From a virus: 21,849 bases of DNA. Of the stretch, positions 1,466 through 10,961 are shown one piece after another. Position numbers and translations under genes: made by a program. The stretch lies in IMG/VR virus record IMGVR_UViG_3300012920_000322, positions 1 through 21,849 of that record. One strand, given 5' to 3'. Numbering within the stretch: position 1 is the stretch's first letter; each line of letters opens with the position of its first letter. The notes under the pieces were generated by a model. The model saw only the letters and a list, made by a program, of their open reading frames with translations. It had not been told where the DNA came from and did no database searches.

Positions 1466-1473
1466 TTGCCTGT

Positions 1474-1513
1474 CTTCCCCCCGTAGGGAAGGAGGGGCAG
1501 CCGAGGCCGCCCC
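1474..1513 (-). terminator. Twin hairpin after capsid/decoration genes
   Basis: Reading leftwards, an 8-bp stem with a CTCG loop (GGGGCGGC / GCTGCCCC, one G-U pair) follows the decoration gene stop by about 10 bases. A second stem (CTTCCC / GGGAAG, 6-base loop) comes immediately after. There is no U-tract, so it may be a partial terminator, an RNA-stabilising element or an attenuator. Its position matches that of the T7 terminator behind the capsid gene, which lowers transcription of distal genes relative to capsid. Confidence 0.55.
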
Positions 1514-1522
1514 GCCAATGGC

Positions 1523-8634: not shown

Positions 8635-8643
8635 CAGGTCGAA

Positions 8644-8685
8644 ACAGGCAAGGACTTGCCTTGCCTGTCTGCTGGTAATGCCAGC
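8644..8685 (+). terminator. Two hairpins after first early gene
   Basis: ACAGGCAAGG / CCTTGCCTGT is a perfect 10-bp stem with a 5-base loop. Three bases later come GCTGG / CCAGC with a TAATG loop. No U-tract follows and another early gene starts 38 bases on, so it is an attenuator, RNA-processing or mRNA-end-protection element rather than a full terminator. It contains a second GGCAAG/CTTGCC site related to the promoter dyad. Confidence 0.5.
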
Positions 8686-8723
8686 ACTGATGAGACCAAA
8701 CAGGCCGGAGGAGGGCCAGAAAA

Positions 8724-9334: not shown

Positions 9335-9511
9335 ATGGAAAAGCAAATTGCACAGATAATATTCGCAGAGAAACAGGCAGAGTTCCACACTGTCAAAGAC
9401 TCATCGCAGTGGCGGCATTGGATGGCGCAAGCCTACACAATCCGCCGACAGATAGGCGAATACCGCGAGTGGTGGAAGTTGCAAAGAATTTACTGGGCTA
9501 TAGGAGTGTAA
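9335..9511 (+). CDS. Small helical early protein, Trp/Arg-rich
   Basis: 58 residues, almost wholly helical, with many aromatics and arginines (QWRHWMAQAYTIRRQIGEYREWWKLQRIYW). It begins 4 bases after the upstream stop. The upstream stretch GGTGAGGTGAAGAA serves as ribosome site. No family is recognised. It is the last gene before a structured intercistronic RNA. Confidence 0.6.
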   Translation: MEKQIAQIIFAEKQAEFHTVKDSSQWRHWMAQAYTIRRQIGEYREWWKLQRIYWAIGV

Positions 9512-9515
9512 CACA

Positions 9516-9585
9516 GGCATGGGCCAGCAATGGCCCTGCCACTTCAGTGCATCGCTACTGGTGCATTGAAGCGGCAATGTTGCCG
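9516..9585 (+). ncRNA. Triple-hairpin intercistronic RNA element
   Basis: Three perfect or near-perfect hairpins fill the gap between two early genes. (1) GGCA-t-GGGCCA / TGGCCC-TGCC, 10 bp with one bulge and a GCAA (GNRA) tetraloop. (2) CTTCAGTGCA / TGCATTGAAG, 10 bp with one G-U pair and a 10-base loop. (3) CGGCAA-TG-TTGCCG, which may close with a 4-base loop. No U-tract follows, and an AAAAGGAGG ribosome site starts about 9 bases after. It may be a stability element, RNase site, riboregulator or protein-binding site. The function is unknown; the base pairing is directly visible. Confidence 0.5.
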
Positions 9586-9609
9586 GAAGAGCCAAAAGGA
9601 GGATAACCA

Positions 9610-9864
9610 ATGGCACAAAGAGGAAGACCAAAACTTGTTGAAAACATGGAACCGTGGGAGCTGAAGAAGCATCGCAACGAGCAAGCTTACAAAGCCCTGA
9701 CAGATGAGCAGACCGAGGCAATAAGAAAAGCCCGTGAAGCATTGTGTGAGTTTAATCAACAATGGTCAGAGAGCTATGACCTGTATGATATGGAAACACC
9801 GCGCAAGCTTGACGCAGCATTTTGGGCAATCGCAAACGCATTTCCAAAAAAGGAGGACGAGTGA
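9610..9864 (+). CDS. Early protein with basic GRPK N-terminus
   Basis: 84 residues. The start MAQRGRPKLVENMEPWELKKHR has an RGRPK motif as in AT-hook or regulatory DNA-binding tails. Then come helices with ALTDEQTEAIRKAREALCEF and a C-terminal helix LDAAFWAIANAFPKKEDE. The ribosome site AAAAGGAGG is the strongest in the operon and follows the triple hairpin directly. The stop overlaps the next start as TGATG. No named family is recognised; a DNA-associated role is possible. Confidence 0.65.
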   Translation: MAQRGRPKLVENMEPWELKKHRNEQAYKALTDEQTEAIRKAREALCEFNQQWSESYDLYDMETPRKLDAAFWAIANAFPKKEDE

Positions 9865-10819: not shown

Positions 10820-10961
10820 CGAGTAATACAGTGCTGTATTACACTGTATTGAAGAAAGGCACTGCTAAAATGACAGTGCCTTTTTTTATTTATAAATAAT
10901 TTAAAACTTTCTTTGTGAAGTACAAAGCACCATACACTGTAATACTGCACTGTATTGCTCG
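10820..10961. repeat. 32-bp imperfect inverted repeat flanking terminator
   Basis: Bases 10820-10851 and 10930-10961 are inverted copies, 28 of 32 positions complementary, enclosing 78 bases. Each arm also contains its own short dyads, e.g. GTAATACAG / CTGTATTAC at 10823-10842. The enclosed segment holds the terminator stem and a further perfect hairpin CTTTGT / ACAAAG at 10911-10927. No transposase or target-site repeat is seen. It lies between convergent genes. Confidence 0.7.
10855..10887 (+). terminator. Rho-independent terminator of early operon
   Basis: AAAGGCACTG / CAGTGCCTTT, a 10-bp perfect stem with a 9-base loop and seven T's (the last three stem bases included in the run). On the opposite strand the tract is A-rich then TTTCTTC, so it may also work for the convergent leftward operon, but less well. 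It follows the HNH stop by 37 bases. Confidence 0.9.

Follow-up and report, generated by a model that had tools for sequence, protein, structure and literature searches.

A structured gap in the early operon of an uncultured phage

What would 70 strongly structured bases between two early genes do for a phage? The question is raised by positions 9516 to 9585 of the window (the whole 21,849-nucleotide stretch of DNA analyzed here, an IMG/VR virus record), which lie in an early operon, a series of small genes on the plus strand that extends from 8425 to about 10817 (Table 1). The terminase encoded in the window shares 53% identity with its counterparts in HTVC010P-like pelagiphages, and genes for a head-tail connector and for a capsid protein (Phage_capsid_2) are also present. 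When the early region was compared with cultured phages by BLASTN, no match was returned, and the element alone matched only 29 bases of a Gordonia phage, with an unconvincing E value of 3. This lack of a nucleotide match among cultured phages and a GC content of 46% point to an uncultured relative, a phage of marine type, the host of which is probably other than SAR11.

Folding of the element yields three contiguous hairpins with a minimum free energy of -43.3 kcal/mol, compared with a mean of -24.6 (standard deviation, 2.8) for 200 dinucleotide shuffles, none of which reached so low a value (z = -6.57). In a scan of both strands of the window in steps of 5, it is the 70-nt segment with the lowest energy (mean, -13.5; standard deviation, 4.9). 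The first-pass annotation, made from the letters alone, had described a 10-bp hairpin with a GNRA loop, a second 10-bp hairpin, and a 14-base palindrome, paired beyond chance, lacking a U-tract, and placed ahead of a ribosome site, and had named a riboregulator, an RNase-processing site, and a protein-binding element as candidate roles. Folding recovers this picture, including the palindrome as hairpin 3 and the Shine-Dalgarno sequence that follows, with one correction, hairpin 2 containing 12 bp rather than 10; the excess of pairing over chance is borne out by the shuffles and by the covariation among homologues described below. A terminator scan was silent across the element, and no T-tract follows any of the stems, either in the window or in the homologues, so that the element does not have the form of an intrinsic terminator. 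The structure can be considered real with high confidence.

Table 1. Positions of the three-hairpin element, its operon surroundings, and hammerhead RNAs (window coordinates unless a contig is named)
Feature	Position	Strand	Description
Hammerhead, type II	8637-8697	+	full core by pattern; Rfam RF02276 below cut-off
Hammerhead stem II	8637-8640/8694-8697	+	GGUC / GACC, open
Hammerhead GAAA	8641-8644	+	
Hammerhead stem III	8645-8667	+	closed by loop
Hammerhead UC	8668-8669	+	predicted cut after 8669
Hammerhead stem I	8670-8686	+	closed by loop
Hammerhead CUGAUGA	8687-8693	+	
Upstream gene	9335-9511	+	58 aa, no family match; unrelated genes instead in sister phages
Stop codon of upstream gene	9509-9511	+	just 5' of the element
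Hairpin 1	9516-9540	+	GGCA-U-GGGCCA-GCAA-UGGCCC-UGCC; 10 bp, 1-nt bulge, GCAA (GNRA) loop; from fold and covariation
Segments s1, s2	9516-9519, 9537-9540	+	inside hairpin 1
Unpaired base	9541	+	single base separating hairpins 1 and 2
Hairpin 2	9542-9571	+	12 bp; sequence variable; from fold and covariation
Hairpin 3	9572-9585	+	CGGCA-AUGU-UGCCG, 5 bp; from fold; invariant in type A
Segments s3, s4	9573-9576, 9581-9584	+	inside hairpin 3
Linker AGCC	9590-9593	+	identical in 11/11 type A copies; CGCC in type B
Shine-Dalgarno AGGAGG	9597-9602	+	precedes ATG at 9610
Downstream gene	9610-9864	+	84 aa; AT-hook-like N-terminus, MAQRGRPK; in sister phages replaced, cut short, or missing
Inverted repeat with T-tract	10852-10886	.	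between convergent operons; likely terminator ending the early operon
Hammerhead-like RNA, sister early operon	L012 3410-3463		
Hammerhead-like RNA, sister early operon	L016 6562-6632	-	
Hammerhead-like RNA, sister early operon	L066 1481-1541		
Hammerhead-like RNA, sister early operon	L075 1655-1714		
Hammerhead-like RNA, sister early operon	L087 2032-2102		
Hammerhead-like RNA, sister early operon	L088 1984-2054		

Homologues preserve the stems at one operon position

Homologues were retrieved from viral contigs by using DNA patterns and the downstream proteins as queries. The resulting sample, 17 distinct sequences from related phages with one copy found per contig, keeps the same architecture at one operon position, straight after a stop codon and 12 to 25 nt 5' of an AGGAG-type ribosome site. 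In eleven distinct sequences, denoted type A, the three hairpins contain 10, about 12, and 5 bp, respectively; four others, type B (L001, L016, L007, and L011/L012), have a longer hairpin 2 and a 7-bp hairpin 3 in which the sequence changes while the pairing stays. In L013 and L036, hairpins 2 and 3 are retained and hairpin 1 has diverged. A model built from six type A sequences gave E values between 1e-12 and 1e-15 for later type A members and of about 1e-7 for type B, scores that are inflated at hairpin 1 because most type B and some type A contigs had been fetched by the hairpin 1 pattern. Five contigs (L055, L057, L062, L063, and L065) were fetched via protein neighbors and are independent of that pattern. 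The model found no match in pelagiphage HTVC010P, and a scan keyed on hairpin 3 added no new homologue. Apart from homologues that were already known, a degenerate form of the hairpin 1 pattern led to unrelated contigs, in some of which a solitary hairpin of similar form precedes a gene start; these contigs are pattern-selected and were left out of the homologues. Across 84,980 bacterial and archaeal genomes there was a single match, rejected as a terminator-like hairpin followed by a U-tract.

Standard base pairs occupy 94.9% of the cells in the alignment of 11 type A sequences and 97.5% in that of six, against only 33 to 53% in slid controls. Double changes occur in 35 cells of the type A alignments, and ten pairs in total are changed on both sides among the 11 sequences, counts that do not represent independent events since the sequences are related. 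The 11-sequence alignment was fitted to the model and is biased toward its structure; a plain MAFFT alignment is nearly identical. Double compensatory changes affect 8 of the 12 pairs of hairpin 2, the sequence of which is almost wholly replaced while pairing is kept, except for two mismatches common to L018/L024 and the L055 group. In hairpin 1, they affect 2 of the 10 pairs, with C-G turned into G-C in 5 of the 11 homologues, so that the inner stem reads either GGGCCA/UGGCCC or GGGGGA/UCCCCC. Conversely, hairpin 3 (its loop excepted), the UGCC of hairpin 1, and the AGCC linker are invariant in type A.

These stem-preserving compensatory changes are the mark of a conserved structured RNA, and they bear out the covariation that the first-pass annotation had proposed to look for in related contigs. 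Pairing is thus conserved in the homologous gaps, and these are not translated either: for every frame across the element, one or more homologues carry a stop, leaving no conserved ORF. The suggestion of a possibly undescribed phage RNA is likewise upheld, since none of the Rfam 15 covariance models reached its gathering threshold on the element; a match to Erse (E = 1.9) is spurious. Judged by sequence comparison, the element is a conserved cis-acting RNA, in types A and B, that occupies a fixed early-operon junction in uncultured HTVC010P-like phages. In the literature searched, no paper on a noncoding RNA of HTVC010P-like phages was found, and the element adds a covariation-supported RNA family to these abundant, mostly uncultured phages.

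The element persists while neighboring genes are exchanged

The junction occupied by the element is the same in every contig of sufficient length. Directly upstream, at least seven unrelated genes alternate. Downstream lies a gene starting with MA[KQ]xGRPK that comes in at least three sequence kinds and encodes a protein with no relative among cultured phages; after it come genes for a small conserved protein and a Cro-like HTH protein, frequently also an HNH gene. The GRPK frame of L016 is disrupted (truncated) and the element is still present, and in L018, which has no GRPK gene, the element directly precedes the next operon gene. Because the element is retained when the flanking genes are replaced or disappear, it appears to serve the junction or the downstream segment rather than one gene, and the RNA is not the private operator of a single gene. 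The autoregulatory operators of T4, such as that of gene 43, likewise involve a hairpin located 5' of a phage ribosome site (PMC3014915), but the element outlasts a changing or missing downstream gene, and a single autoregulated downstream gene is, from this pattern, a less likely target. By staying in place while its neighbors turn over, the element may mark a gene-swapping site in phage early operons. The bodies of the GRPK proteins of L006, L022, L024, L057, L062, and the window (9610-9640) differ and their N-terminus MA[KQ]xGRPK is common, as though the RNA leader had kept the beginning of the gene while the remainder was exchanged.

Two folds are possible

The segments s1 (GGCA), s2 (UGCC), s3 (GGCA), and s4 (UGCC) allow two pairings. 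Fold I combines s1-s2 with s3-s4 into the three hairpins, and fold II combines s2-s3 with s1-s4 into a three-way junction in which hairpin 2 is lengthened, in type A to 16 bp and in type B to about 19 bp with a mismatch. The computed energies of the two folds lie within about 1 kcal/mol of each other in most type A copies, and the ensemble preference varies with sequence. In type A, s2, s3, and s4 are invariant and s1 drifts. One position of s2/s3/s4 reads C/G/C in the window, C/G/U in L001, U/G/U in L036, and U/A/U in L013, so that s3 can always pair with both s2 and s4. This dual pairing across a few sequences is suggestive of two folds; the covariation for fold II comes from two diverged sequences, L013 and L036, because its pairs are invariant in type A.

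A predicted type II hammerhead in the same operon

The intergenic gap 8635-8723, between two early genes, is occupied by a predicted hammerhead ribozyme with looped stems I and III, an open stem II, and the core CUGAUGA/GAAA/UH, the arrangement of a type II hammerhead. It is the only match to the core pattern in the window and scores 27 bits against RF02276, below the gathering score of 37 (E = 7e-4 for 161 bases and 2.4e-5 for the whole record). Similar hammerheads occur in other element-bearing contigs (L001/L002/L004, L016, and L012) and in sister phages without a model match to the element (L066, L075, L087, and L088). None was seen in element-bearing L005, L006, L022, L018, L024, L055, L062, and L063, and the two RNAs are thus not tied to each other. 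According to a published proposal, clusters of hammerheads in phage operons divide long transcripts into mRNAs of gene length (PMC3088659). The three-hairpin element resembles them as a structured RNA between phage genes but lacks their core: CUGANGA, GAAA, and NUH at a three-way junction are absent from 9516-9602. One of the sister-phage RNAs carries CUGACGA instead of CUGAUGA. The next ribosome site after the hammerhead of the window is located in the loop of a GGCC-GGAGGAG-GGCC hairpin.

Possible functions of the element

Tentatively, the sequence comparisons favor a cis-acting leader at an mRNA boundary that insulates or stabilizes the downstream segment. The element would form a boundary of the polycistronic early mRNA and act at the RNA level: the hairpin stack would fold once the upstream stop codon is passed and separate the highly exchangeable upstream genes from the GRPK gene, the small DHYQL protein, and the Cro-like HTH gene, and provide the downstream segment with a strong, uncoupled ribosome site of its own. 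It would probably also shield the flanking mRNA ends from nucleases. The predicted hammerhead probably also cuts the operon upstream of the element, which fits segmentation of the mRNA, and the two RNAs together suggest that these small phages organize early gene expression at the RNA level. The GGCA/UGCC/GGCA/UGCC series may permit two near-isoenergetic folds, a possible point of control. Pure insulation would not need an invariant hairpin 3, UGCC segment, and AGCC linker, which hint at recognition or switching.

A translation regulator, an operator or aptamer controlled by a protein or ligand that sets the expression of the downstream gene, is a possible but doubtful alternative. Such a regulator could switch between the three hairpins and the three-way junction, as the invariance of s2, s3, and s4 in type A, the pairing of s3 with both partners in all copies, and the small energy difference would allow, but the limited covariation of fold II speaks against it, as does the exchange or loss of the downstream gene. 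Alternatively, the GCC of the linker could pair with the AUGGC start region in a weak fourth hairpin around the Shine-Dalgarno sequence, where type B has added stems of varying sequence; this hairpin is, however, weak in type A and broken in L018. As a translation block it was rejected as not clearly exceptional, because, elsewhere in these phages, pairing that spans the ribosome site is not a rare feature of gene starts (22 of 242, against 5.8% in shuffles). An undescribed phage RNA switch, in which the two exclusive, near-isoenergetic folds and the upstream hammerhead jointly control early-operon processing or expression, is unlikely.

The other alternatives are less probable than the mRNA-boundary leader and the translation regulator. 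In the early mRNA of T7, RNase III sites are intercistronic hairpins just before ribosome sites, and the element is placed in the same manner; a host RNase III-type processing site is nonetheless quite improbable, given that usual RNase III substrates are longer than the 10-, 12-, and 5-bp stems of fold I and that cleavage would not demand an invariant hairpin 3 and linker, although hairpin 2 is extended in fold II. Little more can be said for an antiterminator of the kind found in the lambdoid phage HK022, in which nascent hairpins bind host RNA polymerase and allow passage through downstream terminators. The HK022 putRNAs are about 70 nt long, with two stem-loops, and lie downstream of early promoters (PMC9378689). 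The element shares the length, the adjacent stem-loops (a single unpaired base separates hairpins 1 and 2), the early transcript, the apparent cis action, the single copy found per contig, and an effect tied to no gene, a likeness drawn from described features. Unlike put, it has three hairpins rather than two and precedes a ribosome site about 1.1 kb inside a translated operon, far from the promoter, and the next terminator-like site lies between convergent operons, where read-through would go antisense. A new self-cleaving ribozyme, which the operons shared with type II hammerheads would suggest by neighborhood, as for other ribozymes, and for which a three-way-junction fold is available, is very improbable: conserved core bases that are unpaired are almost absent outside the linker, the GNRA loop, and an AUNA loop, and no Rfam ribozyme family matches. 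Finally, a decayed intrinsic terminator or chance GC-rich hairpins are scarcely credible. The 20-mer of hairpin 1 followed by a U-tract does form a terminator-like site in a deltaproteobacterial contig, but no homologue has a U-tract, and two stems retain compensatory changes.

Other intercistronic hairpins

Lone GC-rich hairpins with GCAA-type loops also precede gene starts in unrelated phages (L030, L032, L033, and L034), for which the search pattern selects. In the same operon of L062 and L064, an extra intercistronic GNRA hairpin (CCAGGCUGGAGCAAUUCAGCCUGG) is found about 60 to 90 bases before a gene beginning with MLIVSHT. Another class of multi-hairpin leaders occupies comparable junctions in L007 (about 2010-2090), L087 (about 2600-2700), L088, L044, L045, and L080, and consists of a GCUUGG..GUCAGGC hairpin and a GGCC/GGGC hairpin, followed by UUUAAAUCGCCAUUAA and a strong ribosome site. 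The second most stable region of the window (1466-1522, minus strand) comprises two strong hairpins between two late minus-strand genes.
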